The position numbers and the translations under genes were made by a program. DNA of 37,068 nt, taken from IMG/VR virus record IMGVR_UViG_3300026094_001113, positions 1 to 37,068 of that record. One strand, 5' to 3'. Below the pieces are notes generated by a model, which did no database searches, was not told the origin of the DNA, and worked only from the letters and a program-made list of their open reading frames with translations. Shown here piece after piece: positions 6,205 through 34,489 of this stretch (the first letter of the stretch is position 1; each line of letters starts with the position of its first letter). This DNA comes from a virus.

Positions 6205-7473
6205 ATGAAAAATAATTCCTGCACCTTCTGTGTGCATCCATTTACTGGCTTGGCTACTAGAGAAGACGGTGCTATTAAAATCTGCTGTAGAAGCCAGCCT
6301 GTGGGGTGGATACAGCAACAAAGTCTCGAAGAAGTTTGGAACTCTGACAAAATGAAAGAAGTTCGTAGACAGGTTCTAAGCGGTGAGAGACCTGATGTCT
6401 GTATCCCGTGTTTCGACCTAGAAGATCAAGGCGTAGAGAGCTTAAGACAGCGTCACATACGCGGAATTATACCCGAGGCTAGAGTTAACCTTTACCCTGA
6501 TGCTTTAGACAAGCTAGAAGACGATTATTCAATGCCATTTGAATTTCCTACTATGGAGATCAAGATCAACAATCTCTGTAACCTAAAATGTCGCATGTGT
6601 AATCCTCTTGATTCTACTTCGTGGACTGACTGGAAAGAAGTTGAACCGTTTTACGAGAAGGAAAACAACTATCTTGTGCCAACAGTTAAAAAACTTACAT
6701 CAAGACCTGGTCAATATATCGGACCATTTGACGATACTGCTCATTGGTGGAGTGATTTTGAAAAATTGCTGCCGCATTTTAGAAGAGTAGAGTTTGCAGG
6801 AGGCGAGCCTTTAATGGATCCTAACCATTACAAAATTCTAGACATGCTCAAACCCTACGCTGACAACATTGAAATTAAATATGCTACAAACGGTACTAAA
6901 CTAGGCATATCGAAAGGCAAGACTATATTTGACTATTGGCCGCATTTCAAGTCTGTCGCTGTTAATGTAAGTATCGACGGCATACATGATGTATATGAAT
7001 ATATAAGGGGCAACGGAGAGTTCGCGCTTGTAGAAGAAAATATTAGAAAAATGAAGGCAATTCCTAATATATCTAGAATAGTAGGTGCATTTACAGTTCA
7101 ATCTAACAACATAATGCAGATAGACAAAGTAATTGAATATTTTCTTAAAGAGATGGGTATTATTTTCTACAGTCATAGAGTAAACTATCCTAGAGCATTG
7201 TCAGCACAGGTTTTACCTAGGAAATTAAAACTCAAGGTTATAGAAAAACTTGAATTAATGAAGCATATAGTAGAAGACTACGAAATTGTTAAGAATAGTT
7301 CCGTTATTCGAGAGGTAACTCTACAACAAATTCAAGACAATATTAACTTTTTACAAGCCGAAGACTTAAGCGAACATTGGCAAGATTGCGTAGAGTTTAA
7401 CCGCAAACTGGACGTAACTAGAAGTCAAGGACCTTTAGAAAAAGTAATACCAGATTTCAAAGATTTTTTGTAA
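6205..7473 (+). CDS. Twitch-type radical SAM enzyme (R1)
   Basis: This 422-residue enzyme has the SAM-cleaving cluster motif C125-x3-C129-x2-C132 (NLCNLKCRMCNP) and GGEP at 199-202. The N-terminal 75 residues form an auxiliary cysteine module: C6, C9, the pair C27-C28 and C66-x2-C69, with VWNSDKMKEVRRQVLSGE between them. This reads like half of a SPASM domain placed before the core instead of after it. Relatives are usually named 'twitch domain-containing radical SAM protein'. The founding twitch enzyme, BtrN, dehydrogenates an aminocyclitol; the substrate here is unknown. It heads an operon with a PP-loop ATPase and a second rSAM. ATG 6205 appears leaderless. Confidence 0.85.
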   Translation: MKNNSCTFCVHPFTGLATREDGAIKICCRSQPVGWIQQQSLEEVWNSDKMKEVRRQVLSGERPDVCIPCFDLEDQGVESLRQRHIRGIIPEARVNLYPDALDKLEDDYSMPFEFPTMEIKINNLCNLKCRMCNPLDSTSWTDWKEVEPFYEKENNYLVPTVKKLTSRPGQYIGPFDDTAHWWSDFEKLLPHFRRVEFAGGEPLMDPNHYKILDMLKPYADNIEIKYATNGTKLGISKGKTIFDYWPHFKSVAVNVSIDGIHDVYEYIRGNGEFALVEENIRKMKAIPNISRIVGAFTVQSNNIMQIDKVIEYFLKEMGIIFYSHRVNYPRALSAQVLPRKLKLKVIEKLELMKHIVEDYEIVKNSSVIREVTLQQIQDNINFLQAEDLSEHWQDCVEFNRKLDVTRSQGPLEKVIPDFKDFL

Positions 7474-7475
7474 TT

Positions 7476-8273
7476 ATGAATTATAAAAGCAAAATACAAC
7501 CAGAGTACGCCTACACAAATTTAGTAGAACACGATACAATTTTTTTCCCTTTAGATAATAAATGGAAACGTGTTGCCATTAGTGTTAGTGGTGGTGCTGA
7601 TAGCGCTCTTCTTGCCTATTTGTTAAGTTATTATATTTGGAAAAATAATTTAGATATCGAAATACATTTTATATCTAATATACGTATGTGGGAAACACGA
7701 CCGTGGCAAAGATATGATAGTATAAACGTATATAATTACATTAAAACACTTTTTCCTTCGTTGACATATCATAGACATGAAAATTTTATACCGCCAGAGC
7801 TAGAAACAGCTAACATCGGAAAAATAATACCTCATTTTACTGGGGAGCAAAAAGGCGGGGATTCGATCTGTACTTTTTCTTATGCTACTTATATCTGTAA
7901 AAGAGAAAATATAAGTGCTTGGTTCGCAGCACTAACAAAAAATCCTGATCAAGATTTTTCCGGAACCCCAGACGATAGAAACAGCAAAGACTTAGATAAT
8001 GTAAAAAATCCTATAGAAATTTTCAATGGTATAATTCTAGCTCATCCTTTTTGTAACACAAGCAAGGATTGGGTTATAAAACAATATAAGGATCTAGATA
8101 TATTAGACTTATTAAATGCCACTAGAAGTTGTGAAGGAGATAAAAATTCTGCTCCAGAAATATTTGGTGAATTAAATTTTTATACATACAATCAGTTCGA
8201 CTATGTACCAACTTGTGGCAAATGTTTCTGGTGTCAAGAAAGAAAATGGGCATTAAGCCAAAATAACTTATGA
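7476..8273 (+). CDS. PP-loop ATPase, QueC/ExsB-like
   Basis: This 265-residue ATP pyrophosphatase carries the PP-loop SGGADS at 38-43, which binds ATP to adenylate a carboxylate or amide, and a C-terminal zinc-type set C219, C247, C250, C253 (CGKCFWCQERKWAL). The last part is very close to QueC, which makes 7-cyano-7-deazaguanine. In QueC, however, the first cysteine lies about ten residues before the CxxC; here the gap is 28. No other queuosine genes are present (FolE, QueD and a QueE-like rSAM are missing). It therefore probably performs ATP-driven nitrogen or sulphur insertion on another substrate, in step with the rSAM enzymes that flank it. It is 2 bases from the upstream stop and overlaps the downstream start by 4. 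Confidence 0.8.
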   Translation: MNYKSKIQPEYAYTNLVEHDTIFFPLDNKWKRVAISVSGGADSALLAYLLSYYIWKNNLDIEIHFISNIRMWETRPWQRYDSINVYNYIKTLFPSLTYHRHENFIPPELETANIGKIIPHFTGEQKGGDSICTFSYATYICKRENISAWFAALTKNPDQDFSGTPDDRNSKDLDNVKNPIEIFNGIILAHPFCNTSKDWVIKQYKDLDILDLLNATRSCEGDKNSAPEIFGELNFYTYNQFDYVPTCGKCFWCQERKWALSQNNL

Positions 8274-9157
8274 AAAAAATTACAAGTAGGTGGCCCCATC
8301 AAGATTCTTTAAAAATAGAATGGAACCTGGGCAAGAGGTGTAATCTCGATTGTGCCTATTGTCCTGCGGAAATACATGATAACCATTCTCCTCATACTGC
8401 TATAGATATTCTGAAATCCACAGTAGATAAACTTTCTCAGATTGACAAGCCTTTGAGAATAAGTTTTACTGGGGGCGAGCCCTGTGTGCATCCAAAAATA
8501 TCAGACCTGTTTGATTACACAAGACAGCATGCTTCGTGGATTAATGTAACCACAAATGGAACACGTAAAGCGGAATGGTATGCCAGCCAACCTCTAGATC
8601 ATATTGTGTTTTCTCTACACTTTGAAACTGCCGACTGGGAACGACATTTGATAAACATCGTAGAAACACATGAATTAGTAGATATTCCAATACAGGTAAA
8701 TGTCATGGCACATCACGAGCATATGGAAAATGTTAGGTTTGCCGCTATGCATCTACAAAATCACAAAATAAAGCATGTTATACGCCGCATTCGTTGGACA
8801 GAATCGCATGATTGGTTTGATGATATGCGCTACGACCAAAGAGATCTAGACTGGATCTTAGAAAACGAAGCAACTGCTTTACCTAATTGCGAAGTAGATG
8901 GAGAATATTCCATACATGCTAACGACATAATAAAGAAACACGATAATCAATTTCAAGGTTGGAAATGTAATATTGGGTTAGAAAGTCTGATGATTAATTG
9001 GGACGGTGAGGTTTATAGAGCAACCTGTAGAGTAGGAGGCAGTTTAGGGAATATATACGAAGGCAATTTTGAGAATCCCAGTGATTCGATCACTTGTACT
9101 CGTAATTGGTGTACATGTGCAGCTGATATTCCTATCACTAAAATAAAACTAATCTAA
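8270..9157 (+). CDS. Radical SAM enzyme with C-terminal Cx4CxC cluster (R2)
   Basis: This 295-residue enzyme has its cluster at C24-x3-C28-x2-C31 (KRCNLDCAYCPAE) and GGEP at 68-71. The C-terminal third holds C233 (GWKCNIGLE), C253 (RATCRVGG) and the ending C276-x4-C281-x-C283, apparently a SPASM-like auxiliary site. The same Cys layout recurs in the genes at 10232, 11298, 12259 and 33497. The phrase FSLHFETAD in the barrel is also shared in form with them. It is coupled to the PP-loop gene by an ATGA overlap and meets a convergent rSAM gene tail to tail with a 9-base overlap. Its GC content is higher than in the middle of the island. Substrate is unknown. Confidence 0.85.
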   Translation: MKKITSRWPHQDSLKIEWNLGKRCNLDCAYCPAEIHDNHSPHTAIDILKSTVDKLSQIDKPLRISFTGGEPCVHPKISDLFDYTRQHASWINVTTNGTRKAEWYASQPLDHIVFSLHFETADWERHLINIVETHELVDIPIQVNVMAHHEHMENVRFAAMHLQNHKIKHVIRRIRWTESHDWFDDMRYDQRDLDWILENEATALPNCEVDGEYSIHANDIIKKHDNQFQGWKCNIGLESLMINWDGEVYRATCRVGGSLGNIYEGNFENPSDSITCTRNWCTCAADIPITKIKLI

Positions 9158-10192
9158 TCCACAAAGTAAATTACATAATAAAAGTTTTTGTTTGATCCAA
9201 TAACGATGCCATATTTTTAAATATTCTGGGTTGTTTAATATACTTTTTATAGATACAATATCTAAACTAAAAAGATTTTCTTTTTCTAAGTCCTTTATTA
9301 CAGCGGCAATCTCCTTTTTAATTCTAGGCAACCTTTTGTTAAGCGCATGCTCACCTATTATAGGCATTTGATATCTGTTGGTGGCAATGTAGCAACAAGG
9401 AAATATACACTTGTAAGCATCTATATAAATGCTGTTGTTTGTTAATGATTCGCAACAATTTGTCATATTTTTTTCTAAAGTTTCGACGTCTTGTAAAAGG
9501 TTTTCGAATTCTGCTTCGGATCCAATATCTACATTTTCAATACAGGATTCAAGATTATATAATGTTGAGCCGTCTTTACCTAATACTGAAAACTGACTCG
9601 ATGTTTTAAATCTTTCTGTAACTATTTTATCAACAGAATTAAACCCTATGTCTAGTAGAAATTTTTCTAGGTCTTTGTATTGATGTTGATTATGTTTAAA
9701 TTGAATAAAATGAGCCTCTGCATTTCCGCCTGCTTTTATAAATGTCTTTGCATTATCGATTATTTTATTCCAATTTGTACCTATTCGGTATAGACTATGG
9801 GTATCTGAGAAACCGTCAATTCCAAAATATACAGTGTGATTTTTTGGCAAGCGTTTGGGTAAATTTTTCCAAAACGTGGTTGTTCGTAGACTTGCATTAG
9901 TATGGATATCTACTTTTATCATAGGATTAATTTTTTTGACATAGGATATTATATCTAAAAAATCTTTTACCATTAACGGATCGCCTAGACCGCCACAAAA
10001 ATTAAGATGTTTAATCTGCATCAATACTTCTTCAGATAGAATCTTTTTGAAATCATCTAGATTCCATTCTACGTTTTTGAAAAGATTGTTAGGAATACCG
10101 CTATGATAATTTCTGCTACACATAGGACATTTCGCCTGGCATCGATTTGTTATTTCTACTTCTATACTTTTTAAGTTATTGAAACCAAACAT
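9149..10192 (-). CDS. Radical SAM/SPASM-like enzyme with altered GGEP motif (R3)
   Basis: This 347-residue enzyme has C18-x3-C22-x2-C25 (NRCQAKCPMCSRNYH). Where most rSAM enzymes have GGEP (contacting the SAM amino group), this one has CGGLGDP at 66-72. The C-terminal part has NCCESL, then IYIDAYKCIFPCCYIA, and ends with C340-x3-C344 (LLLCNLLCGLD), a SPASM-like set. It is a clear paralogue of the gene at 14740-15819: both contain DTHSLYRIGT and an AGG-containing helix at the same place. Monocistronic on the minus strand, it has a TTAAATA box 6 bases before ATG 10192 and probably a leaderless mRNA. Confidence 0.85.
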   Translation of the reverse strand: MFGFNNLKSIEVEITNRCQAKCPMCSRNYHSGIPNNLFKNVEWNLDDFKKILSEEVLMQIKHLNFCGGLGDPLMVKDFLDIISYVKKINPMIKVDIHTNASLRTTTFWKNLPKRLPKNHTVYFGIDGFSDTHSLYRIGTNWNKIIDNAKTFIKAGGNAEAHFIQFKHNQHQYKDLEKFLLDIGFNSVDKIVTERFKTSSQFSVLGKDGSTLYNLESCIENVDIGSEAEFENLLQDVETLEKNMTNCCESLTNNSIYIDAYKCIFPCCYIATNRYQMPIIGEHALNKRLPRIKKEIAAVIKDLEKENLFSLDIVSIKSILNNPEYLKIWHRYWIKQKLLLCNLLCGLD

Positions 10193-10231: not shown

Positions 10232-11314
10232 ATGATTAATCCTGTTGCTATAAATTCTAAAAACATAGAGCCTATGATGATTACATGGGACACAGGTAAA
10301 AAATGTAACTATGATTGTACATATTGCGAGGCATCACGTCATGATAATCATAGTTCTTTCCATTCTCTAGAAGAATATCTCGATACTTTTAATTTTATAC
10401 GAGAATATGTCAACATATATGATAGATACAAAATCAATCCTGCTGATCATACCAATATTAATTTTACCGGTGGCGAGCCTACATTAAATCCTCATTTCTG
10501 GGAACTGGCAGACAAAATAAAACAAGACCATAATAATTTTAGATTAAGCCTTACAACGAACGGTGCTTGGAATAAAAAATACACTGAAAAAATTAAAGAA
10601 CACTTTTCTGGCGTTACAGTAAGTTATCATGCTGAATCAAACAATAAATTAAAAGAATTAGTTATCGACAATATTTTAGCATTGAAAGATACTGATATAT
10701 GGTTACAGGTCAATGTCATGCTTCATGCTGATTATTTTAACGAATGTGTCGAAGTATATGAACACTTAAAAAAGAATGGTATTAAGGTCAATCCTCGTCC
10801 GATCGGCGACGGTAATGAGAGTAGGAAAGGGTGGTTTGTTGACGAAGATGGCGTGTTTAGGAAAACTGCCCATGACTATACCGAAGAACAAACGGATTGG
10901 TTTTTTCGAGAAACAGGGTTAGAAAAAAATATCGAATGTTCGTCAGGAGACGAATTTGGAAGAGGTTGCTGCGGCGGAAGGTGTATTGAAGGGTTAGTGG
11001 ACGATGTATGGCAGCCTGTATCTATTGTTGATACACATTTTAAAGATTGGTATTGCTCGGTTAATTGGTATTTTTTACACATTGAACAACACACTGGTTC
11101 AGTATATCATCATCAGACCTGTCAAGCAAAGTTTGACGGTGAAAGAGGTTCTATAGGATCTCTATCAAAGACACAAAAAATGTTAAATGATGTAAAAGAA
11201 AATATAAAAAAAGATAAAATTATATCTTGTCCTAATATTAGATGCGGTTGCGGAATGTGTGTTCCAAAAGCCGAAGATAAAAATATTTTTCATAAACTTA
11301 AATCTTCCATTTAG
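10232..11314 (+). CDS. Radical SAM enzyme with C-terminal Cx4CxCx2C cluster (R4)
   Basis: This 360-residue enzyme has C25-x3-C29-x2-C32 (KKCNYDCTYCEAS) and GGEP at 80-83. The barrel contains VSYHAESNNK, shared with the gene at 12259 (VSYHAESTPK). A middle insert near residues 230-250 is Cys-rich (GRGCCGGRC). The C-terminus carries WYCSVNWYFLHI, HHQTCQ and the ending C333-x4-C338-x-C340-x2-C343 (RCGCGMCVPK). This is the same plan as R2 with an added final Cys, so extra iron-sulphur clusters are likely. Substrate is unknown. It is a single-gene plus-strand block that overlaps the convergent rSAM gene by 17 bases. Confidence 0.85.
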   Translation: MINPVAINSKNIEPMMITWDTGKKCNYDCTYCEASRHDNHSSFHSLEEYLDTFNFIREYVNIYDRYKINPADHTNINFTGGEPTLNPHFWELADKIKQDHNNFRLSLTTNGAWNKKYTEKIKEHFSGVTVSYHAESNNKLKELVIDNILALKDTDIWLQVNVMLHADYFNECVEVYEHLKKNGIKVNPRPIGDGNESRKGWFVDEDGVFRKTAHDYTEEQTDWFFRETGLEKNIECSSGDEFGRGCCGGRCIEGLVDDVWQPVSIVDTHFKDWYCSVNWYFLHIEQHTGSVYHHQTCQAKFDGERGSIGSLSKTQKMLNDVKENIKKDKIISCPNIRCGCGMCVPKAEDKNIFHKLKSSI

Positions 11315-12266
11315 TGACAGCAATTTCTGACTTACAGCTACAAATATCTTTTGTACAAGTTATAGGCTTAAATTTTGGATTAAAATTATCTTTAAAATTT
11401 TCATCGTAAAGATTAAATGGTGCAGGATATCCAAAAATTTTATCTCTACAATTTGCTGTAATTTCGCCGTTTTGGAAAATTTTAACTTGCTCTAACCCTA
11501 TATTACATTTAAATCCTTTAAAATAATTTAGATTATTAATAGAAATCCACTGATCTCCTTCAGATTCTTTTACTGTGTCGTCCTCTAAAGTTATAAAGAG
11601 CTTAGTAATCTCAACTGGGCCTACTTTATTATACCATTCTTCGTTAGGATATCTTCTTATTCTTTCCTCTAGGTAGACCTTTTGATCATCGTTATAAAAA
11701 GTTTTTCCGTTAAAATGGACTACTTTTGCTAAAATAGGCCAATCGTACTTAGAAGTTTTTAAATCTTCAATTATTTGTTTACATTTGTCAAAACTTCTAT
11801 GATCCATTAACACATTCGTAACAAAAAATACATCATGTTCATATAGAATATCACCTACTTTTTTTAAATGTTCAATGTTAGCAAATTCATGATGTATACT
11901 AATTTCAATTTGATCAAAATATCTACAATATTCTTTCCACCATCTACGACTTTTTGATCCATTTGTTGATATGCGTATTTCACAATTAAATTTTTTTCTA
12001 AAAAAGTCGCAAACTTCAGGAAGATCTCTCCATAAAGTAGGCTCACCTCCTATAAGGTAAAGTATAGGCCGTGTTCTTCCATTTTCTCGATACTTAGACA
12101 AAAGATGTCCTAAATTCCGTTTAACTATTTCTTTGTCGGGCCAAGGATAATCCCCTTCATTGCTGCCTGGGAAACAATACGAACATTTATGATTGCATAG
12201 ATTTCCTAACATGTATTCTATTCTTATGCGTTTGTCTGAAAAATTATTTTTTATAGATTTAATCAT
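11298..12266 (-). CDS. Radical SAM enzyme with C-terminal Cx4CxC cluster (R5)
   Basis: This 322-residue enzyme has C24-x3-C28-x2-C31 (NLCNHKCSYCFPG), GGEP at 73-76 (LIGGEPTLW) and ISIHHEFAN in the barrel. The tail has GFKCNIGLE, TANCRDK and C304-x4-C309-x-C311, which groups it with R2 and R13. The last words (AVTKWKI) also resemble the end of R2 (PITKIKLI). It is the final gene of a four-rSAM operon in which all genes overlap, and starts at ATG 12266, 8 bases inside the upstream gene. Its 3' end overlaps R4 by 17 bases. Substrate is unknown. Confidence 0.85.
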   Translation of the reverse strand: MIKSIKNNFSDKRIRIEYMLGNLCNHKCSYCFPGSNEGDYPWPDKEIVKRNLGHLLSKYRENGRTRPILYLIGGEPTLWRDLPEVCDFFRKKFNCEIRISTNGSKSRRWWKEYCRYFDQIEISIHHEFANIEHLKKVGDILYEHDVFFVTNVLMDHRSFDKCKQIIEDLKTSKYDWPILAKVVHFNGKTFYNDDQKVYLEERIRRYPNEEWYNKVGPVEITKLFITLEDDTVKESEGDQWISINNLNYFKGFKCNIGLEQVKIFQNGEITANCRDKIFGYPAPFNLYDENFKDNFNPKFKPITCTKDICSCKSEIAVTKWKI

Positions 12267-13353
12267 TTCTATATTTTTCCATTATTTTTTTGAAAACATC
12301 CTCATCTTTTGACTTAGGAGTACACATTCCACACCAGCAACTGTTTTTTTGGCATACGATAAAATCTTGTTTATTTTTTATTGCGTGTCTTGCCTTTTTA
12401 AGTATTTCTTCTGTATCTGTTAAAAAACCTAATGGTGCTACTTTGCTGCGTAAATTTTGTCTGCAATCTTTATTTGTAAAAACCTGTCCAGTGTTCTGCC
12501 TAATGTATAAGAAAAATCTGTTAACGCTGCAATTCCATCCTTTAAATTTATTTTCGACTAAAGTTTTAGTAGAATCATAATTTTCATCTATGTAAAAGGG
12601 AACACGTCCACAACATTCTCTAACTTTACTACTGAGATCTATTCCGTTTTTCACAAAATAAGAAAACTTATCTAGAATTTTTGTTTTTGGACAGTTATCG
12701 CATGTTCCATATAACCAATTTTTTTGTTCTTCTGTGTAATTAAATCTAAAATCACTCCATTTAGAATCAATTTGTCTAGGAATTACTTTTATTTTACGCT
12801 CCCTGCACCATTTGACCATACTTACGCAATCTTCCCAGTAATGAGGGTGCATCATACAGCTCACTTGGAAATTTTTATTACGTTTTTTAAGGAACAAGAT
12901 ATTGTTTTTAACTAATGTTTTTTGTTTAGGCGTAGATTCGGCGTGATAACTTACTGTTATATGATCTAGATTAGATATAATTTTTTTCCAATGGTTTTTT
13001 CCTACTACTGCATTGGTTATTGTGCTTATTGCTACTGAAAAATCATATTTTTTTCTTTTATCCTTAATATAACCTAGGATATCTACTATATCTGGATGAA
13101 ATAGGCTCTCTCCGCCGTAAACATTAAGATTGACGTGTTTCATTACTTGGTTACTATTATCAGGGTAAGTATACAAGTACAGGCTTACGTATTGAAAAAT
13201 AAAATCAACGGTTTGAAGACACTCATGTAAAGAAGGATGCGGTTGGGTGTTATCATGGCCATCACCGCAATATGAACAATCTAAATTGCATTTCAAAGTG
13301 CTTTCCCATTCTACATGAAAAAACTGTTTTTCAGCTGGTTCGAGTGTTTTCAT
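12259..13353 (-). CDS. Radical SAM enzyme with C-terminal Cx4CxCx2C cluster (R6)
   Basis: This 364-residue paralogue of R4 has C22-x3-C26-x2-C29 (LKCNLDCSYCGDG). The SAM-binding motif is GGES (80-83) instead of GGEP. The insert near residues 210-255 has CDNCPKTK and ECCGRV, and the tail has GWNCSVNRFFLYI, NKDCRQN and C334-x4-C339-x-C341-x2-C344 (CWCGMCTPKS). The Cys set, the barrel phrase and the final PKxxDxxxF(H/K)K are shared with R4, so both probably act on related substrates. It starts at ATG 13353 in an ATGA overlap with the twitch-type gene upstream and overlaps the next gene by 8 bases. Confidence 0.85.
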   Translation of the reverse strand: MKTLEPAEKQFFHVEWESTLKCNLDCSYCGDGHDNTQPHPSLHECLQTVDFIFQYVSLYLYTYPDNSNQVMKHVNLNVYGGESLFHPDIVDILGYIKDKRKKYDFSVAISTITNAVVGKNHWKKIISNLDHITVSYHAESTPKQKTLVKNNILFLKKRNKNFQVSCMMHPHYWEDCVSMVKWCRERKIKVIPRQIDSKWSDFRFNYTEEQKNWLYGTCDNCPKTKILDKFSYFVKNGIDLSSKVRECCGRVPFYIDENYDSTKTLVENKFKGWNCSVNRFFLYIRQNTGQVFTNKDCRQNLRSKVAPLGFLTDTEEILKKARHAIKNKQDFIVCQKNSCWCGMCTPKSKDEDVFKKIMEKYRND

Positions 13354-25352: not shown

Positions 25353-25371
25353 GATTAGAAAACTATGTAAT

Positions 25372-25379
25372 AATAAATA
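25372..25379 (+). promoter_or_regulatory. Late -10 box (AATAAATA), plus strand
   Basis: The same octamer as 25345-25352, again with a 5-base spacer (GGATT) to ATG 25385. The two halves of this 45-base spacer are near mirror images in function. Confidence 0.6.
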
Positions 25380-25384
25380 GGATT

Positions 25385-27180: not shown

Positions 27181-28057
27181 GATATATTTTCCTTACTGCA
27201 TTTATAAATTTTGTTGGACAATAATTGGTATAAAATTGTTTTAATTTATTCAACGATGGACATCTTCTTTTAGTACTACCAATTTTTCCTTTTTGATACA
27301 CCCAACTTATTTTTTTATTATATATCTCTTTAGCTATAATATCTGCCGCATCTAAAACAGTTATTTCTTCGTCGTTCCCAATATTTATAAATTCATTGCT
27401 AACTGTGTTGGCTAGATAAATTAAAGCATCGATAGCATCATCAATATAACAAAACGATCTTGTTTCGTCTGCTCCTATTAGATCAAAATTTTCTTCTTTT
27501 ATTTTTTCGATAATATCATAGACAAAATGTCCGGGCCTACTGTCTTTTGAAAATACGTTAAAAAATCGAACAACAAGAAAATTTAAATTGCTGTTGGCTA
27601 GATAATTTTCTCCAACAATTTTAGAAATTCTATAACTCCATCTCGAGTTATGAATATTTTCTATATAGATATCTGTTTCCTCGGGAGTTGGTACATTTTG
27701 TGTTCCGGATATTACTTCGCTTGAACTAGAATATATAATTTTACAATTGGAGTTTTGAGAAGCAAAGTTAAAGGTAGCTAAGTCTATTTCGATATTGTTT
27801 TTTAAGACAGTATTAGGCACATCATAAAAATTATCGGTTCCGTTTATAGCTGCTAGATGAAAAATAAAATCAAAATCATTTTGGTTTTTTTTATAAAATT
27901 CAATTAAATCTTCATCAATTATTGTATCATTAACAACATTTCCTTTTCTAAAGTTGTTATCTACTGCAACTACCGTATTGTTTTTAGACAAACACTCATA
28001 CAGAGCATTTCCAATCAAACCGTTGGCACCTGTAATTAATATTTTGAGTTGTTCCAT
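27164..28057 (-). CDS. NAD-dependent sugar-nucleotide epimerase/dehydratase
   Basis: This 297-residue short-chain dehydrogenase of the extended type has the NAD-binding GANGLIG (10-16), the Ser-rich strand IIYSSSSEV, catalytic Y142-x3-K146 (SYRISK) and RFFNVF plus FCYIDDAIDAL. The family converts nucleotide sugars (UDP-glucose 4-epimerase, UDP-glucuronate decarboxylase and others). It directly follows a UDP-sugar dehydrogenase-like gene (22-base overlap), so decarboxylation or epimerisation of a uronic acid nucleotide is the natural guess. The exact reaction cannot be read from sequence alone. Confidence 0.8.
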   Translation of the reverse strand: MEQLKILITGANGLIGNALYECLSKNNTVVAVDNNFRKGNVVNDTIIDEDLIEFYKKNQNDFDFIFHLAAINGTDNFYDVPNTVLKNNIEIDLATFNFASQNSNCKIIYSSSSEVISGTQNVPTPEETDIYIENIHNSRWSYRISKIVGENYLANSNLNFLVVRFFNVFSKDSRPGHFVYDIIEKIKEENFDLIGADETRSFCYIDDAIDALIYLANTVSNEFINIGNDEEITVLDAADIIAKEIYNKKISWVYQKGKIGSTKRRCPSLNKLKQFYTNYCPTKFINAVRKIYHEIHR

Positions 28058-28779
28058 ATGGTATTGCTATCCTTTATTATCTTAAATAACGACGAATCTA
28101 AATTTAGATTATTTAAAGTTTCTATCAAAAAATCTAAATCTTTAGGTAGACATTTGCCTCCAAAACCTCTTTTGCCGTCTGGACCGGGAACTTCTAAATA
28201 TGTTTGGCTTTGCTGAACTTGTAAAAATAAGTCTTTTACTACATGGTAATCGCCGCCTATTCTTTGAGAAATATCATAAAAAATATTAGCAAAGGCTACT
28301 CTTAAAGTTGCATAATTATTGGAAAACATTTTTAAGAGTTCTGCTTCTTCTAACGAACAGGTTTTATTTTCCAGTTGTGTTAAAAGTTGGGGGATTTCTG
28401 CCGAATTATTTCCAATTATTATAGGTCTTTTCTCACAGTCTGTTTCCCAAAACCGTTCTCTTAAGAATTCTGGAATATATAATATAGAATCCTGTATTTC
28501 TCCTTCAATTAGTTTACATGTTCCGATCGGAACAGTACTCCTTATAACAACAGTGCATGTAGAATTAATATTTTTTACATCTTTAATTTCTTTTACTAAT
28601 TTTGCAATATCTTTTTGATCATCAGTAGGTATACAAAAAAATAAAATATCGCAGTTTTTTAAAATAGAAATATCGGTTGCATACTTTATATCGTGTTTAA
28701 TAACTTCTTGATATTGTAACAGCCCTTTATGTGTAGCCTTACCTACGAATCCATATCCTACGATGCCTATTTTTTTCAT
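28036..28779 (-). CDS. Minimal UDP-glucose/GDP-mannose dehydrogenase-like protein
   Basis: I place the start at ATG 28779 (247 residues), which opens MKKIGIVGYGFVG and overlaps the previous stop by 4 bases. A longer frame back to 28839 would add a basic leader inside the methyltransferase gene. NAD-binding GYGFVG is at 8-13 and the catalytic Cys C210 is in GFGGKCLPKDL. Family members normally have 390-450 residues; here the C-terminal nucleotide-binding domain is absent. It might still oxidise a sugar, perhaps with another subunit. A second, fuller homologue lies at 35926-37068. A ribosome site (CGGAAAG) precedes the start. Confidence 0.75.
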   Translation of the reverse strand: MKKIGIVGYGFVGKATHKGLLQYQEVIKHDIKYATDISILKNCDILFFCIPTDDQKDIAKLVKEIKDVKNINSTCTVVIRSTVPIGTCKLIEGEIQDSILYIPEFLRERFWETDCEKRPIIIGNNSAEIPQLLTQLENKTCSLEEAELLKMFSNNYATLRVAFANIFYDISQRIGGDYHVVKDLFLQVQQSQTYLEVPGPDGKRGFGGKCLPKDLDFLIETLNNLNLDSSLFKIIKDSNTIWNNSKY

Positions 28780-29366
28780 TTTTTCTTTCCGATTAACATG
28801 TATCTTGTGTATAACGGTAACTCTAATTCTCCTGACCAAAATATTTCAATATTCGATTGTTTCTTGAACTCTGTTAAATCATGCGCAATTCTTACATGTT
28901 CTTCGATATCGTAATTATTACTCTGTAATACTAACAGCTGGTCATTCGTATTGTCTAGCCATCGATTATAATCTTCTTGTATCATGTGTTCACAACTAGT
29001 GTTAATTATCACGTCTGATTGAGGGACATGATCACACATGTCTTTAGCAATAACATCAAATCTACCTTCCATAACTTCTAACATATTCATTTCTTTTGCG
29101 ATATTTTTACAAGTCTGATCTATATCTATGCTTAGAATCTTCGATGCAGGAATATTACTTTGAAAAATTAAACTGGATAAAACTCCTACCCATCCTCCGT
29201 GTATTTCAATCGATACAGGGTCATATATAAACTTTTCCAAAGAATTTATAAGCCATTCTTTGCTGGAGATTTGACCTTTCCAAAATGCGTCAAGAGTTCT
29301 CTGATGATTTTTGCTTTTTCGTATTGCCTGCATCCAATAATGTAGATGTTCAGTATCAATATACAT
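28776..29366 (-). CDS. SAM-dependent methyltransferase-like protein
   Basis: This 196-residue protein has a class I methyltransferase pattern: motif I EIHGGWVGVLSS (54-65), acidic end of the second strand ILSIDID (78-83), FDVIAKDMCDHV and DVIINTSCEHM as the strand-4 region. Motif I is GGWxG rather than the usual GxGxG. The target is unknown; its operon partners (dehydrogenase, epimerase) suggest a sugar nucleotide or a glycan. It heads the minus-strand operon, and a TATAGATA box lies 9 bases upstream of ATG 29366. An overlapping 14-base palindrome (29365-29378) spans the start. Confidence 0.7.
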   Translation of the reverse strand: MYIDTEHLHYWMQAIRKSKNHQRTLDAFWKGQISSKEWLINSLEKFIYDPVSIEIHGGWVGVLSSLIFQSNIPASKILSIDIDQTCKNIAKEMNMLEVMEGRFDVIAKDMCDHVPQSDVIINTSCEHMIQEDYNRWLDNTNDQLLVLQSNNYDIEEHVRIAHDLTEFKKQSNIEIFWSGELELPLYTRYMLIGKKK

Positions 29367-29378
29367 ACATATATGTAT
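29365..29378. repeat. 14-bp perfect palindrome at a divergent junction
   Basis: ATACATATATGTAT is its own reverse complement. It overlaps the first two bases of the methyltransferase start codon and lies in the shared spacer of two divergent operons; it could be an operator or a chance feature of AT-rich DNA. Confidence 0.45.
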
Positions 29379-29383
29379 CTATA
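29376..29383 (-). promoter_or_regulatory. Variant late -10 box (TATAGATA), minus strand
   Basis: One mismatch to TATAAATA, with 9 bases to ATG 29366. No equally good plus-strand box is visible for the amidinotransferase; a degenerate CATACATA at 29364-29371 aligns with the TATAAATA of 15880-15887 through the 13-base match that follows it. Confidence 0.4.
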
Positions 29384-29410
29384 ACACAAACTACATATGA
29401 AAAAATAGAG

Positions 29411-30394
29411 ATGTTAAGCACAAACGAATGGAGTCCGTTAAAATCGATAATTGTCGGGGTAGCTAACGATGCTAAAATCCCTTTACTGGATAAAAGTCTA
29501 AGGACTGTTAATTATGCTGACGAACCTGAAGAAAAAAACATACCAATTGGATTATATCCTCAACAGGTTATAGACGAAGCAAACGAAGATTTAGAGACAC
29601 TGTGCAATTTTTTAAAGAATGAAGGCATCAAAGTCCTTAGACCTGACGTTGATCCTAAACCAAAATATTATAACTACTGTCCTCGAGATTCTGTACTAGT
29701 ATACGATGATTTAATTTTAGCTACTCCGCAACCTCTTAGAGCTAGACAAAACGAATATCTACACATGGATCGACATTTTTCTCCTTATGTAGAGAAAGGT
29801 GTAAGATACATTAGTAAATCTGCCGAACGTAGGGATTCTCTATACAACGAAAATTGTATCGGCGACAAAGATACGCTAGCATTGACAGAAGAAGAACCGG
29901 CATTTGATGCTGCAAATATTTTAAGGTGTAACGACGATTTATTTTATCTTGTTAGTAACGGCGGAAACAAAGCAGGAGCACAATATCTACAAAGTCTAGT
30001 ACCAAGCAAACAGGTACATTTAATAGAAAATGTTTACACTTTTATGCATCTCGACAGTACTATATCTCTTCTTCGAGAAGGCTTGATGTTACTCAATCCT
30101 GATAGAATTAAAAGCAAGGATCAGTTACCAAAGCCCTTACAGTGCTGGGACGTTGTATGGTGTCCAAAACCAGACAAATTCCCGCACCACCCAGGGTATT
30201 GCGGGGCCAGTGTATGGTTGAATATGAATTTACTTTCTATAAATCCTAATCTAGTTGTCATAGAAGAAAATCAACACGACTTACGTAAAGAGTTAGAAAA
30301 ACATAATATCGACTGTGCTATGCTACCAGGAAGACAACAAAGAACACTAGGCGGTGGATTTCACTGCGTAACATTAGACTTAGAACGAGGATAA
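29411..30394 (+). CDS. Glycine/inosamine-type amidinotransferase
   Basis: I choose ATG 29411 (327 residues): the protein then opens MLSTNEWSPLKSIIVG, exactly where this family starts. An upstream ATG at 29285 would add 42 residues inside the divergent methyltransferase gene. The guanidino-transfer triad is complete: D166 (EPAFDAANI), H213 (TFMHLDST) and C319 (GGGFHCVTLD), with CPRDSV near 93. These enzymes move the amidino group from arginine to an amine, making guanidinoacetate or, in streptomycin synthesis (StrB1), guanidino-cyclitols. Its neighbour's StrG resemblance favours a sugar or cyclitol amine. It is the first gene of a five-gene sugar operon. Confidence 0.85.
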   Translation: MLSTNEWSPLKSIIVGVANDAKIPLLDKSLRTVNYADEPEEKNIPIGLYPQQVIDEANEDLETLCNFLKNEGIKVLRPDVDPKPKYYNYCPRDSVLVYDDLILATPQPLRARQNEYLHMDRHFSPYVEKGVRYISKSAERRDSLYNENCIGDKDTLALTEEEPAFDAANILRCNDDLFYLVSNGGNKAGAQYLQSLVPSKQVHLIENVYTFMHLDSTISLLREGLMLLNPDRIKSKDQLPKPLQCWDVVWCPKPDKFPHHPGYCGASVWLNMNLLSINPNLVVIEENQHDLRKELEKHNIDCAMLPGRQQRTLGGGFHCVTLDLERG

Positions 30395-30395: not shown

Positions 30396-31508
30396 ATGCT
30401 AGAAGAAACACAAATTAATTGGGATAACAAAACGCTAAATTATGATCTAGAAAAATTTAATTGGCCAATGTGGGCACTAAAGGTTGTGCAAGAGATAGCT
30501 CCAGAAGTAACTGAACTAGAAACAATGCATAGGGTTCTTGAGCCCCATAAAATTGTAAAGGTGCAAAAACATGTGCAAGATGCTTGTCTAAGAAAAGAAT
30601 TTATGCAGAAGTTTGACGACTTTGTTGCAGAATATATCCCACAAAGAATTGCTCACAAAAAATATATGATACAACGGCAAGGCACTTTAAGAGTTGTTAT
30701 TCCTAATCAATCCAATGTAGGAAGACGCTTGGCATTTCATCAGGGAATATTTGTAGGAAATGGTAGAGGTTGTAGAACAATTTGGACTCCTCTTACTGAA
30801 GCAAAAAATACTAATACTATGTGGATTCTTGATTTAGAAACTAGTAGACGAATTACCAAAAGGGTTTTATCAGAAAAATGGAGGTTAGATAAATTCGAAG
30901 ACGAATGTTTAAAAAATGCTAAACCTGTAAATTTAATGCCTGGACAAAGTCATTTGTTTTTTCAAGAACATTTACACGGTAATGTTAATAACGAAGAGGG
31001 CTACACCCGGGTTAGTATAGATATGAGAATATTAGTAGAAGGAGAAGAATACGGGAGACGTCTTCCTGGCGGCTTTATGAGATTTCCCGGGGATCACGAA
31101 GTAGCACAATCATATGATTATAGCAACAAAACGTTCATAACCTATGCTGGCTGGAACAGCAATTTTTCTAAGCACATACCTCTACCTATGCAGAGATCTG
31201 TAATAGAAAAGTATTGTCAAGATAACACAATACATTATAACTCATACGAATTTGAAAATGAACACATGGACTGGCAACCTGGTTTAGAACACTACATAAA
31301 CAAAAAGCCAGACGGCATTGTTTTATGCAGTATTTACTGCATGACTGATGACATAGAACGAAGACGAGAATTATTCGAATTAGCTCTAGATAGGGGAGTC
31401 GAATTACATTTTGCTAACGAGTTATGCAGTTTAAGATCAAAAAAAGATTTAGAAAAAATAGAAAACTATTTAAATTTTGCCGTACAAAAAGAAATTTTTA
31501 GCATTTAA
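30396..31508 (+). CDS. StrG-like 2OG-type oxygenase fused to sporadic-carbohydrate-cluster domain
   Basis: This is a 370-residue two-domain protein. Residues 1-235 resemble StrG-like/phytanoyl-type oxygenases: AFHQGIFVGNGRG (H115), TIWTPLTEAKNTNTMWIL, and FFQEHLHGNVNNEEGYTRVS (H194, R205). Where a 2OG oxygenase should have His-x-Asp, this has H115-x-G117, as in iron halogenases. Residues 247-365 (YAGWNSNFSKHIPLPMQ, YCQDNTIHYNSYEFE, DGIVLCSIYCM, ELHFANELCSL) match, from memory, the 'sporadic carbohydrate cluster' (LIC12192-type) family. A good ribosome site (GAGG) precedes ATG 30396, one base after the amidinotransferase stop. Confidence 0.75.
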   Translation: MLEETQINWDNKTLNYDLEKFNWPMWALKVVQEIAPEVTELETMHRVLEPHKIVKVQKHVQDACLRKEFMQKFDDFVAEYIPQRIAHKKYMIQRQGTLRVVIPNQSNVGRRLAFHQGIFVGNGRGCRTIWTPLTEAKNTNTMWILDLETSRRITKRVLSEKWRLDKFEDECLKNAKPVNLMPGQSHLFFQEHLHGNVNNEEGYTRVSIDMRILVEGEEYGRRLPGGFMRFPGDHEVAQSYDYSNKTFITYAGWNSNFSKHIPLPMQRSVIEKYCQDNTIHYNSYEFENEHMDWQPGLEHYINKKPDGIVLCSIYCMTDDIERRRELFELALDRGVELHFANELCSLRSKKDLEKIENYLNFAVQKEIFSI

Positions 31509-31515
31509 GAAGTAA

Positions 31516-32025
31516 ATGATTGATAACGGACATATAGAGTTAAAACATTTTGGTGACTTTTTTAGTAAGCTAGATTATGAAAGGCCTTTGGATGCTACAA
31601 GAGGACTTTCGTACTGTAATCTTGCAGACGAAAATCGCTATAAAAAAGAATTTGTAAAGGCATGCATACATAAAGGAGCTGCAGAAAACGTAGAATTATA
31701 TCTGCAAGATCATTTTTCGTGGTTAAAAAAACATTCGTTTGCTATAAGTCTAATGGAGCCTGGAATGATTTTGCCTCTGCATACAGATAAGTATGGATTT
31801 TACAAGAAAACCTACAGTATATCAAATAGTGATAGTGTTTGCAGGATTATTATTTTTTTAGAAGACTGGAAGCCGGGTCACATATCACAAGTAGGCAACA
31901 AGTTAACTCCTCAATGGAAAGCAGGAGATTGGATATGCTGGACTGGAGAAACCAAACACATGGCTGCTAATTTAGGTCATGAAAATAGATATGTATTACA
32001 AATAACAGGATTACTAAAAACGTGA
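31516..32025 (+). CDS. Small Fe(II)/2OG oxygenase
   Basis: This 169-residue protein has H89-x-D91 (LPLHTDKYGFY), DWKPGHISQV, H148 (TKHMAANLG) and R158 (NRYVLQITG), a complete site. It belongs with the genes at 3377, 26258 and 26686, which share the WxPGHI turn or the final LQVxG strand. AAGAAGT may serve as a ribosome site before ATG 31516. It lies between the StrG-like protein and a sugar epimerase (GTGA overlap), so hydroxylation of a sugar intermediate is plausible, but not shown. Confidence 0.78.
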   Translation: MIDNGHIELKHFGDFFSKLDYERPLDATRGLSYCNLADENRYKKEFVKACIHKGAAENVELYLQDHFSWLKKHSFAISLMEPGMILPLHTDKYGFYKKTYSISNSDSVCRIIIFLEDWKPGHISQVGNKLTPQWKAGDWICWTGETKHMAANLGHENRYVLQITGLLKT

Positions 32026-32933
32026 AAATTTTATTGACAGGTTCTTCCGGGTTTGTAGGACAATTTATAAGTCCTAAATTACAAGAAATTGGGGAAGTGG
32101 TGCATCTTAAAAGCGATTTAACATCGCATAAAGAAGTAGAAAATGAAGTAAATTCTATAGCACCAGATGTTGTTATTCACTTAGCTGCAAAAACTGAGGT
32201 GGAAAAAAGTTTTTATGAACAAACTGTTTTTAGCAGTGTAAATTACGTAGGTACAGTTAACTTAATCGAAAGTTGCTTAAAGCTTAATACAATTCCTTTT
32301 TTCTTTTTCTCAAGCACTATGGAGGTATTTGGCTGGCAACCGATTAGCGACGAAGTAAAAAATCACGGTGTGCCAAAAACTCCTATTGCGTTTAATGAAA
32401 ATACTTTACCTAATCCTAATGCTCCGTATGCAGTAGCTAAATATGCCTGTGAAAAATATTTAGAATATGCTAAAAGATCTTTTGGTTTAGATTATGTAGC
32501 GCTTCGACAAACCAATACTTATGGTAGGCTAGACAATAATTTTTTTGTTACGGAACAAATAATAAGTCAAATGCTTAATAACAAAGTTGTACATCTCGGT
32601 TATTCTGAACCTTATAGAAATTTCCTTTTTATAGATGATTTAGTAAATGCATGGATGGCGGTAATAGAACACAAAGATAAATTATCAGGTAAATCACTAA
32701 CGTTAGGTCCAGACCTGCCGATAAAAATTAAAGACTATGCAGATATAATAGCAAAAGAATTAAGTTGGGAAGGTACAATTTATTGGGATACTAAACCAAA
32801 AAGAGCTGGAGAAATTTTTTGGTTAAACAGTGACAGCAAAGTGTTTACGGACATTACAGGATGGACTCCAAAAACTCCTCTTGATATTGGTATTAGTAAA
32901 ACTATAGAAAAAGTAAAACAAAATGTCATTTGA
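32022..32933 (+). CDS. NAD-dependent sugar-nucleotide epimerase/dehydratase
   Basis: This 303-residue extended short-chain dehydrogenase starts at GTG 32022, overlapping the previous stop by 4 bases. It has GSSGFVG (7-13), VVIHLAAKTEV, FFSSTMEVFG, Y135-x3-K139 (PYAVAKYACE), LRQTNTYG and NFLFIDDLVNAW. This fits enzymes that make 4-keto, 4,6-dehydrated or epimerised nucleotide sugars. A DegT-like aminotransferase follows directly (11-base overlap), the usual pair for building amino-sugars from a keto-sugar. Confidence 0.82.
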   Translation: MKILLTGSSGFVGQFISPKLQEIGEVVHLKSDLTSHKEVENEVNSIAPDVVIHLAAKTEVEKSFYEQTVFSSVNYVGTVNLIESCLKLNTIPFFFFSSTMEVFGWQPISDEVKNHGVPKTPIAFNENTLPNPNAPYAVAKYACEKYLEYAKRSFGLDYVALRQTNTYGRLDNNFFVTEQIISQMLNNKVVHLGYSEPYRNFLFIDDLVNAWMAVIEHKDKLSGKSLTLGPDLPIKIKDYADIIAKELSWEGTIYWDTKPKRAGEIFWLNSDSKVFTDITGWTPKTPLDIGISKTIEKVKQNVI

Positions 32934-33516
32934 TTCAGTTTCAAAATTTGAACATGAAATTTCCAATTTTTATGGTAGTAAATATGCTGTAGCTACTGAT
33001 TGCTGTACACATGCTATAGAACTTTGTTTACGTTTCACAAAAGTATCTCATGCTTATTGTCCTATCTATACCTACATTAGTATTCCGTTTACATTCGAAA
33101 AACTAAATCTACAATGGAAATTTATTGACAGCAAATGGAATGACTTTTATTATGTTACTGATAAAATTATAGATTCTGCAGTGTATTGGAAAGAAAACGG
33201 ATATATCCAAAATACTTTGATGTGTTTAAGTTTTCAATTTAGAAAGCATCTTAGTTTAGGAAGAGGCGGGGCAATCCTATTAGACAACGAACAAGATTTT
33301 ATAGAATTAAAAAAATTGTCTTATGATGGTAGATTACCTGATCAACCGTGGTCTAAACAAAAAATTTCAACACTCGGCTATCATTATTATATGACTCCTG
33401 AAACGGCTGACTTAGGATTAATTAAACTTAAAGAAGCAAAGAACAAAAAATCTAAAAAATGGAGTTATAAAGATTACCCCAATCTGTTAGAAATGCCTAT
33501 CTTTCAATCTTCTTAG
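32923..33516 (+). CDS. Mini DegT/DnrJ/EryC1/StrS-type aminotransferase
   Basis: This 197-residue protein is about half the usual 370-400. It keeps the key points of the PLP sugar aminotransferase fold: FYGSKYAVATDCCTHAIEL at the cofactor phosphate site, D84 (IIDSAVYW) for the pyridine nitrogen, and catalytic K108 (SFQFRKHLSLGRGG). HYYMTPETADLGL near the end matches the family's YNxRMxExxAAxG strand. The large C-terminal domain and several loops are absent, which seems to be a viral reduction rather than a frameshift, as the frame is clean. It likely transaminates a keto-sugar from the preceding epimerase. It overlaps the convergent rSAM gene by 20 bases. Confidence 0.78.
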   Translation: MSFDSVSKFEHEISNFYGSKYAVATDCCTHAIELCLRFTKVSHAYCPIYTYISIPFTFEKLNLQWKFIDSKWNDFYYVTDKIIDSAVYWKENGYIQNTLMCLSFQFRKHLSLGRGGAILLDNEQDFIELKKLSYDGRLPDQPWSKQKISTLGYHYYMTPETADLGLIKLKEAKNKKSKKWSYKDYPNLLEMPIFQSS

Positions 33517-34489
33517 GAATCTTAGAGTCTGCTGAACTTACGCAGGTAGGTGTAATACAAGGAATAGGCTTTTTAAACAATTCAAATCCATCATCGATAG
33601 TGCCAAGAGGTTCGTCGTGGCAAGAATAAGAACGTTTAATCTCACCGCCTGGCTCACGGATAATACAACTCTGATAACCAGCATTACAGTTCCAGCCTTT
33701 GAACTTGTTAAATCCAAACGCATTTAGTCTTTCTGCTTGATCAAGGTCATACTCTGTATCGGCATCGTCTATTAATCTCATCTGCGCAAGTTCTTCGCCA
33801 TTAGCATGCTGCGGAAAGCCTGTTTGTAAGCAGTCAATCTGTGCTTGGGTATAGCTATGTACAACAAAACTTGCTGTAGGGTCGCTTTGAGGCTTGACAG
33901 TGATGTTTATGCCTCGATCTGCAAAGCGCTGACAGCGTTCCCAGTATTCGTCAAACAGTTCTGGCACCATTACCTGATTGATTGTGACAAATACCCCAGC
34001 GTCTATCAGTTGAAGACACTTGTCGCCGAACTGTTGTTCGTCGGCAAACTCTGCGTGGAAACTTGCTGTGATAGATCTTCTACTGAGATTTTCAGTGGCA
34101 GCAATCCAACGGTTCCACCATTTCGCACCCGGTGACAGATTAGTAGTCATGTGTATGCTTTGATACTCTGGCAGGCTGTCTTCGGCATAGTGTTCAATCA
34201 GTTTGAGAAAGTGTTTATACGCGGTTGGTTCGCCTCCGGAAAAACTGAAGTGGAAACTGTCGAAACCATTGAGACGACTCTGTGCCTTGATGTCATCCAT
34301 TATGCTACAATAGGTTTCTAGGGGACGGTGATCTGAGACACTAGATCTTGCGTATGGCCAGCAATAAGAGCATGAATAATTACAATATCTAGCCAGAATC
34401 CAAGAAACTGAAAAAAGACGGTGGTCTAGGAGAGTTTTTTGGCCTAATTTAACTATTTTATCGAATGGTATTTGTTGAAAATCTTTCAT
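33497..34489 (-). CDS. Radical SAM enzyme, GC-rich outlier (R13)
   Basis: This 330-residue enzyme has C36-x3-C40-x2-C43 (RYCNYSCSYCWPYAR), GGEP at 85-88 (FSGGEPTAYK) and ITASFHAEFAD in the barrel, as in R2 and R5. The tail has GWNCNAGYQSC, RSYSCHD and C311-x4-C316, but the third Cys of the Cx4CxC ending is Ser318. Sample lines of this gene run near 47-50% GC, against about 17-30% in the island centre, so it probably has a different source. It starts at ATG 34489, 32 bases inside the upstream gene, with no clear ribosome site. Substrate is unknown. Confidence 0.83.
   Translation of the reverse strand: MKDFQQIPFDKIVKLGQKTLLDHRLFSVSWILARYCNYSCSYCWPYARSSVSDHRPLETYCSIMDDIKAQSRLNGFDSFHFSFSGGEPTAYKHFLKLIEHYAEDSLPEYQSIHMTTNLSPGAKWWNRWIAATENLSRRSITASFHAEFADEQQFGDKCLQLIDAGVFVTINQVMVPELFDEYWERCQRFADRGINITVKPQSDPTASFVVHSYTQAQIDCLQTGFPQHANGEELAQMRLIDDADTEYDLDQAERLNAFGFNKFKGWNCNAGYQSCIIREPGGEIKRSYSCHDEPLGTIDDGFELFKKPIPCITPTCVSSADSKIPKKIER

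Follow-up and report, generated by a model that had tools for sequence, protein, structure and literature searches.

Why would a phage devote so much of the region beside its tail-fibre gene to radical S-adenosylmethionine (rSAM) enzymes? This question is raised by IMG/VR record IMGVR_UViG_3300026094_001113, a linear fragment of 37,068 bases that was analyzed at its full length (hereafter the window; genes are named by the leftmost position of their open reading frame, or ORF). An earlier note, made from the sequence alone, had listed 13 rSAM genes together with nine 2-oxoglutarate (2OG)-type oxygenases and had proposed an unusually dense, dedicated system of oxidative chemistry. We find that the window is a piece of an uncultured T4-superfamily phage and that the newly recognized part of it is a conserved, ordered core of genes within a known kind of host-recognition island of such phages, the kind that bears rSAM genes.

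The core is most readily seen in its gene order. Beside the 65-301-773-1244 module, six large records and many other loci share a series that runs 3997, 5469, often 17074, 4781, 7476, 6205 and 8270, followed by some of 10232, 12259 and 11298, then by 13350 and finally by 28776, 33497, 14740 and 34458. Orientation is conserved as well, with two arms that converge. The left part of the window is itself rearranged, with 4781 and 5469 swapped and 17074 relocated to an insert, and small local rearrangements also occur in other loci. Among 53 distinct loci with an orthologue of 6205, and counting for each gene only loci with enough flank, 6205 is accompanied by 8270 in 50/50, by 13350 in 40/40, by 4781 in 40/41, by 5469 in 31/33 and by 3997 in 28/30. 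Slightly less constant companions are 28776 (29/33), 7476 (36/44), 14740 (26/33) and 33497 (25/33). The core genes, those for rSAM proteins included, are under strong purifying selection: against near relatives the ratio of nonsynonymous to synonymous substitution (dN/dS) is 0.06-0.11 for 6205, 8270, 10232, 13350, 33497 and 34458, which indicates that the core is maintained by selection. Thus the earlier view of a dedicated, co-inherited system rather than random auxiliary genes is borne out by both order and selection. Around this core the island is variable. The closest relative lacks the block from 15921 to 28036 and has 14740 directly next to 28776, so that the rSAM genes 15921, 18010, 23519 and 25385 and three paralogues with a predicted GT-B fold constitute an inserted, variable module whose genes have only distant likeness elsewhere. 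Among 50,697 phage records the ordered cassette did not turn up, and the papers that could be searched do not describe it.

The carriers of this cassette form a group of giant viruses, all uncultured, that infect aquatic bacteria; in them about ten to twenty enzymes of rSAM and oxygenase type, along with genes for handling sugars, are encoded beside the tail-fibre genes. IMG/VR relatives of the window reach 357 kb and encode T4-type gp23 capsid proteins. The window has no capsid gene, so the genome size of its own phage has to be inferred; it is probably a jumbo phage. Relatives of 301-912 are present in the jumbo myoviruses PBECO4, GAP32 and PA5oct, and the major capsid proteins of jumbo phages Phosso, Vibrio phage 2.275.O, PA5oct, CBB and GAP32 are 65-70% identical to those of cassette carriers. 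However, matches to the radical SAM profile PF04055 in the four of these isolates that were searched (all except CBB) number only 4 in Phosso, 1 in GAP32 and 0 in both 2.275.O and PA5oct. A near-identity search with the first 25 kb of the window gave no match among phage records. The earlier note had allowed for a chimeric assembly; this was rejected, since both flanks and the core recur, at 64-91% nucleotide identity to the window, in relatives assembled from other metagenomes. The gene beside the island does encode a fibre-type protein with an Mtd_N domain, and the window shows features of a host recognition cluster, namely a variable island with predicted glycosyltransferases beside a tail-fibre gene and among structural genes. 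The right end of the window falls inside the island, with 35926 open at the contig end, and in one large relative (G008) probable virion-type ORFs lie beyond the cassette.

All 13 rSAM genes begin where they had been reported, and a PF04055 search of the record returned exactly these 13 places, all flagged over cut-off, with 12259 recovered only together with in-frame neighbors. At the protein level 12 of the 13 exceed the PF04055 gathering score, the exception being 14740 at 28.6 versus 29.5 bits. Each encodes a CxxxCxxC motif and additional cysteines; GGEP is found in nine, with the near forms GGES (12259), GGLGDP (9149), GNFGDP (14740) and GGDA (23519) in the remaining four. Together they occupy 14,643 nt, in agreement with the 14.6 kb first estimated. 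Comparison by blastp within the window divides them into five groups, consisting of 8270, 10232, 11298, 12259 and 33497; of 6205, 13350 and 15921; of 9149 and 14740; of 18010 and 25385; and of 23519. The second group belongs at full length to the NCBIfam family NF033640 of N-terminal-twitch rSAM proteins (324 bits for 6205, 387 for 13350 and 294 for 15921, with a curated cut-off of 170), in which an auxiliary-cluster (“twitch”) domain precedes the radical SAM domain and for which the subfamily names no reaction; four N-terminal and three rSAM cysteines are invariant in 16 sequences. Matches to 6205 and 13350 among the 50,697 phage records are confined to Vibrio phages at 22-27% identity, with 13350 matching two of them only, at 22%. 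Gene 23519 is a relative of the KedN5-type B12-dependent rSAM C-methyltransferases, scoring 162 bits against NF033712, well below its cut-off of 700. A viperin-like antiviral role or nucleotide-analogue synthesis was rejected, as 10232 scores 58.9 against the NF038283 cut-off of 180. Bacterial homologues with an informative context were sought in a single GTDB scan with 13350, which returned only PUNK01000001.1, a 3.5-kb contig of a Thermoplasmata metagenome-assembled genome whose encoded protein is 84% identical to 13350 and which is probably a misbinned phage fragment.

The number of these genes turns out not to be exceptional. Across 49 related IMG/VR records there are 0-21 rSAM genes each, most having 5-15; records of 170, 186, 357 and 26 kb, for instance, have 21, 16, 13 and 9. 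The density seen in the window is thus shared by others. These records were picked by similarity to 301-912 or 6205, so their counts are not independent, and since some overlap or derive from the same virus (G006/G008, G032/G033 and G046/G047, for example) they represent fewer than 49 independent viruses. The Campylobacter phages CP220 and CPt10 have been reported to carry 11 and 12 rSAM genes (Timms et al. 2010, PMC2853527), and a PF04055 count gives 11 for CP220. The idea that this contig is an outlier is therefore abandoned; its relatives have about as many such genes, or more, at the corresponding place, with no function assigned to them.

Comparison with known systems brings out both the resemblance and the difference. 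CP220 and CPt10, T4-related phages of Campylobacter group II, have an exchangeable cluster of five rSAM genes and a putative glycine amidinotransferase, and CP220 also has NDP-sugar-transferase genes (PMC2853527). Gene 29285 is a distant homologue of the CP220 amidinotransferase (26%, E 1e-21). The rSAM proteins of the window, however, match a 30-kb stretch of CP220 at only 21-33% identity by tblastn and mostly over partial length, and genome-wide tblastn of phage records with 6205 and 13350 detected no Campylobacter phage. CP220 also differs in having canonical QueC, FolE and PTPS (QueD family) genes. A T4-like ocean genome of 183 kb, TARA_ERS488813_N000010, has 12 rSAM genes (Nishimura et al. 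2017, PMC5332604), which the parts of that report available to us discuss alongside iron-sulfur (Fe-S) assembly proteins and describe as neither a cassette nor a gene order. Fe-S assembly genes as a constant companion were rejected here, with Fe-S_biosyn present in just 2 of 11 carrier records. Similar in setting is the host recognition cluster of pelagimyophages and cyanomyophages, whose glycosyltransferases have been linked to surface change (Zaragoza-Solas et al. 2020, PMC7029224). Like the island it is variable, lies among structural and tail-fibre genes and contains glycosyltransferases, sugar genes and rSAM cassettes, but it was described as non-syntenic (PMC7029224), whereas here the order of the core is kept across divergent records. 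The cultured Pelagibacter phage Mosig, which has 2 PF04055 matches, carries an analogous block, situated between VrlC and its tail fibres, that encodes Asp/Arg hydroxylases, MoaA-like rSAM proteins, an ArnB-like aminotransferase and an epimerase. By analogy, the Mosig and CP220 blocks may point to the same sugar-tailoring role that we propose below. The isolate Vibrio phage K566 has, at 16.7-34.1 kb, five to six N-terminal-twitch-type rSAM genes near a PagP lipid A acylation gene and is a possible tractable model.

The genes that accompany the rSAM enzymes direct attention to sugars. The protein encoded by 34458 is a predicted GT-A glycosyltransferase on the basis of its fold and DXD motif. 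Its predicted structure has a predicted local distance difference test score (pLDDT) of 90 and a GT-A/nucleotide-diphospho-sugar-transferase fold that matches several glycosyltransferases and nucleotidyltransferases with Z of about 10-11, mostly over residues 1 to about 140, and both aspartates of the motif are invariant in 16 sequences. As nucleotidyltransferases match about equally well, the fold alone is not proof of glycosyl transfer. Fused forms of 644-702 residues occur in relatives G007 (81679-83787) and G003 (150598-152532), in which several diverged repeats stand N-terminal to the GT-A domain. The GT-B prediction for the paralogues 18906, 20202 and 22186 is weaker owing to a mean pLDDT of 69.6; the 20202-family model gives Z of about 11 over 250-276 residues, tied between T4 beta-glucosyltransferase, an alpha-1,3-fucosyltransferase and exostosin. 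The epimerases, the UDP-sugar-dehydrogenase-like proteins and a short DegT-type piece are clear in Pfam. The DegT-type piece (32923-33516) covers about half of the Pfam profile, and comparable short forms exist in relatives.

The nine proposed oxygenases hold up in part. An HxD motif and a later histidine are visible in eight, the ninth (30396) is ambiguous, and Pfam returns sub-threshold matches to Asp_Arg_Hydrox for 4781 and 31516 only. The product of 7476 is a divergent QueC-like protein that scores 18.7 bits against PF06508, below the gathering score of 22, and has no NCBIfam match, but its PP-loop SGGADS (consensus SGGxDS) and its C-terminal four-cysteine site are kept in 12/12 relatives. 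Neither 7476 nor 34458 has a match in the 50,697 phage records. Sequence searches of the PDB with profiles of 34458, the QueC-like protein, the methyltransferase-like protein and 20202 gave nothing useful, while the profile of 5469 weakly matches protein kinases there (E 5e-4).

Promoter-like motifs, which are motif matches rather than mapped start sites, add a temporal aspect. In four large relatives the T4 late box NATAAATA shows a 20-30-fold enrichment in the regions that precede genes. In the window its core 7-mer occurs 9 times versus about 30 expected, and seven of nine exact NATAAATA sites are followed, 8-42 nt further on, by a start codon on the correct strand (P about 2e-10), namely those of 1244, 2497, 5469, 15921, 21530, 23519 and 25385. 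The same box stands before 4781 in 15/47 distinct upstream regions of relatives, mostly at 9-13 nt, before 3997 in 8/34 and before 7476 in 4/36, and those before 4781 and 3997 are never found with a sigma-70-type site. Upstream of 34458 the late box is absent and TTGACA-TATAAT is found instead, at 34-35 nt in 10/24 distinct upstream regions of relatives as well as in the window. Judged by these motifs, the cassette appears to consist of two arms, one of early type that starts with 34458 and takes in the genes behind it, and one of late type with the oxygenase and QueC-like genes. Late-type boxes stand just 8-13 nt before the starts at 3315, 6164, 25339 and 25385 and that of 4781 in relatives, without a Shine-Dalgarno sequence, while the fibre gene has its box 36-42 nt upstream and does have a Shine-Dalgarno sequence. 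Transcripts of the cassette might be nearly leaderless.

Our leading interpretation, which we advance tentatively, is that the island would be a phage pathway for tailoring an unusual sugar or sugar-like unit that is attached to the virion fibre or to the host surface. Every enzyme function in it is a prediction, set within observed gene content, order, selection, folds, fibre adjacency and promoter motifs. The earlier label of “oxidative chemistry” suits the classes of enzyme present, yet glyco-tailoring is a more specific reading, to which we are led by the glycosyltransferase folds and the genes for sugar nucleotides. In such a pathway, sited in the host-recognition region of the phage, the epimerases, UDP-sugar dehydrogenase and aminotransferase would supply or alter a nucleotide sugar from a host or phage pool. 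The rSAM enzymes with auxiliary Fe-S domains, the B12-type C-methyltransferase and the 2OG oxygenases could then epimerize, dehydrogenate, methylate or hydroxylate the unit, with acetyl, methyl, amide or nitrile (via the QueC-like protein) and amidino groups being added in some phages. Attachment of the unit to an acceptor would fall to the conserved GT-A protein together with the accessory proteins of GT-B type. This acceptor would be the adsorption apparatus of the virion itself or else the envelope of the host; we lean slightly towards the former, given that the same T4-type late promoter precedes the fibre gene and the arm with the oxygenase and QueC-like genes. Several points weigh against tailoring of a surface sugar. 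The GT-A and GT-B folds are also used by nucleotidyltransferases and by enzymes that glucosylate DNA. Gene 34458 is within reach of 6205 in only 18/32 loci, and the near-universal core (6205, 8270, 13350, 4781, 5469 and 3997) includes no sugar-nucleotide gene. Purely late expression is contradicted by the conserved sigma-70-type site with which the glycosyltransferase arm begins, so the cassette is not purely late. Moreover, none of the cassette rSAM proteins scanned reaches an NCBIfam equivalog cut-off, and consequently no reaction step is assigned to any of these.

Two alternatives retain a surface as the target. Remodeling of the host envelope (lipopolysaccharide or O-antigen) during infection, with exclusion of rival phages, is the published view for glycosyltransferases of the pelagimyophage host recognition cluster (PMC7029224), and it accords with the early-type promoter before the conserved glycosyltransferase arm and with the proximity of the K566 rSAM block to PagP. 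We nevertheless consider it unlikely for this island, as the late-type promoters at the oxygenase/QueC-like arm and at several window genes come late for exclusion and no gene for a polymerase, flippase or membrane glycosyltransferase could be recognized in the window. Direct post-translational modification of virion proteins, in which rSAM enzymes of SPASM/twitch type and Asp/Asn-type 2OG hydroxylases would act on the fibre or its neighbors much as ribosomally synthesized and post-translationally modified peptides (RiPPs) are matured, has several attractions: peptides are the targets of most known SPASM/twitch rSAM enzymes, the nearest sub-cut-off NCBIfam profiles include peptide maturases, the core oxygenases weakly resemble aspartyl/asparaginyl hydroxylases, and the cassette adjoins the fibre gene and has the same late-type promoter. 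It is improbable all the same, for it leaves the glycosyltransferase and sugar genes unexplained, and among seven rSAM proteins scanned with NCBIfam the peptide-maturase equivalogs gave sub-threshold matches only, with no RiPP family at cut-off. A RiPP cluster with a linked precursor was likewise rejected, since the cassettes of relatives contain no conserved small ORF of precursor type, although precursors that are distant or unlinked are possible.

Hypermodification of phage DNA, in which the QueC-like protein would feed 7-deazaguanine chemistry and the rSAM, oxygenase and glycosyltransferase enzymes would decorate the base, draws on genes elsewhere in the carriers. FolE is present in 11/11 carrier records searched, QueE in 6/6 by blastp, and a DpdA-like gene (our own label from viewing the sequence, with no NCBIfam match) in 5/6, being missing from partial record G005, so a 7-deazaguanine DNA system is likely in these phages. 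A strong canonical QueC was not found in carriers (a weak match occurs in G007 only) while 7476 is QueC-like, and this gene might serve that system. The 20202 model also counts T4 beta-glucosyltransferase among its best matches, though tied with fucosyltransferase and exostosin. In G008 QueE, FolE and the DpdA-like gene lie near the cassette, at about 205-214.5 kb, with early-type promoters. We regard this proposal as decidedly improbable for the island because these genes are outside the cassette, in G008 and G003 in a neighborhood of mostly sigma-70-type promoters (2 late and 14 early versus 9 late and 5 early in the cassette/fibre zone; Fisher p 0.007), and because FolE is also present in cassette-less relatives. 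A natural-product-like pathway for a small molecule acting in the host cell or against competitors would bring together the B12-rSAM relative of KedN5, the amidinotransferase fold, the oxygenases and the methyltransferase; we hold it to be very improbable, with no polyketide synthase, nonribosomal peptide synthetase, RiPP core or exporter found, and with a fibre-region location and glycosyltransferase conservation that better fit surface chemistry. That unrelated auxiliary genes simply accumulated at a recombination hot spot could explain why the island is partly variable, as with the 15921-28036 block, but is scarcely credible given the fixed core order, near-universal co-occurrence and strong purifying selection.

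Returning to sugar tailoring, a bolder version, which we offer as a speculation and think less likely than not, is that an uncultured jumbo phage lineage has fixed, within its conserved gene set, an rSAM/oxygenase/QueC-like/glycosyltransferase cassette that would make a chemically new decoration of the adsorption apparatus or host surface. Strains would exchange accessory modules to diversify it, and its two arms would be of early and late type. Were a surface decoration indeed made, phages would run their own multi-step radical chemistry, with a bearing on how phages in the ocean adsorb, which hosts they reach and how they compete with each other. Scattered reports of rSAM “auxiliary genes” gain from the cassette a common shape, an ordered core with exchangeable modules, and a short list of highly conserved, uncharacterized enzymes (6205, 8270, 13350, 33497 and 34458) stands out for the question of what their substrates are.

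Table 1. Features of the 37,068-base window. Fractions are loci with the gene among 6205-bearing loci with enough flank.
Feature	Position	Strand	Remarks
Three small conserved left-flank genes	65-301, 301-912, 773-1204 (span 65-1204)	+	301-912 related to jumbo myovirus proteins
T4-type late promoter box GATAAATA	1208-1215	+	36 nt before fibre gene 1244
Tail-fibre-like protein	1244-2500	+	Mtd_N domain; C-terminal part variable
Two putative 2OG oxygenases	2497-3315, 3377-4000	-, +	HxD and later His; present in few relatives
Core putative 2OG oxygenase	3997-4788	-	HRD...H invariant in 12 relatives; close to 6205
Core putative 2OG oxygenase	4781-5476	-	Weak Asp_Arg_Hydrox; upstream of 6205
Core kinase-like protein	5469-6164	-	TATAAATA at 6172 upstream
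Core rSAM, N-terminal twitch	6205-7473	+	NF033640
Divergent QueC-like PP-loop protein	7476-8273	+	
Core rSAM	8270-9157	+	Downstream of 6205
rSAM, paralogue of 14740 (40%)	9149-10192	-	Seldom present in relatives; matched distantly in phages of Campylobacter and Pelagibacter
rSAM, Cys-rich C-terminal region	10232-11314	+	19/49 loci
rSAM, group of 8270	11298-12266	-	33/42 loci
rSAM, group of 10232	12259-13353	-	10/42 loci
Core rSAM, N-terminal twitch	13350-14822	-	NF033640
rSAM, CQAxCPMC type	14740-15819	-	
rSAM, N-terminal twitch, variable insert	15921-17087	+	TATAAATA 41 nt upstream
Core-associated protein, acetyltransferase-like by sequence only	17074-17631	-	No Pfam hit; 18/33 loci
rSAM, variable insert	18010-18882	-	
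Three paralogues (18906, 20202, 22186), predicted GT-B fold	18906-23532	-	
Putative 2OG oxygenase	21530-22189	-	Between GT-B-type paralogues
B12-binding rSAM, relative of KedN5-like C-methyltransferase	23519-25339	-	AATAAATA 13 nt upstream
rSAM, variable insert	25385-26272	+	AATAAATA 13 nt upstream
Two putative 2OG oxygenases (26258, 26686)	26258-27180	-	
NAD-dependent epimerase (27164), UDP-glucose/GDP-mannose dehydrogenase-like protein (28036)	27164-28839	-	Pfam
Core methyltransferase-like protein	28776-29366	-	Motif-based assignment; no Pfam or PDB match
Amidinotransferase/deiminase-fold protein	29285-30394	+	Distant relative of CP220 amidinotransferase
Possible oxygenase (30396), putative 2OG oxygenase (31516)	30396-32025	+	
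NAD-dependent epimerase (32022), short DegT-type aminotransferase piece (32923, 197 aa)	32022-33516	+	Pfam
Core rSAM	33497-34489	-	158 IMG/VR relatives
Core GT-A-fold protein	34458-35144	-	DXD (D57, D59) invariant
Sigma-70-type promoter-like site TTGACA-N-TATAAT	35149-35179	-	35 nt before 35144
SGNH-hydrolase-like protein (35163), UDP-glucose/GDP-mannose dehydrogenase-like protein (35926)	35163-37068	-	35163 by sequence only

Three of the listed ORFs probably begin downstream of their listed starts. Orthologues place the start of 13350 at about 14747 (an ATG at residue 26), 5469 probably starts at an ATG 6 nt inside the listed ORF, and the true start of 29285 is probably near 29411. Additionally, the cassette regions of four large relatives (G001, G003, G007 and G008) differ in composition from the rest of the same records, with a lower GC content and with Shine-Dalgarno-like sites at 23-37% versus 44-55% elsewhere.

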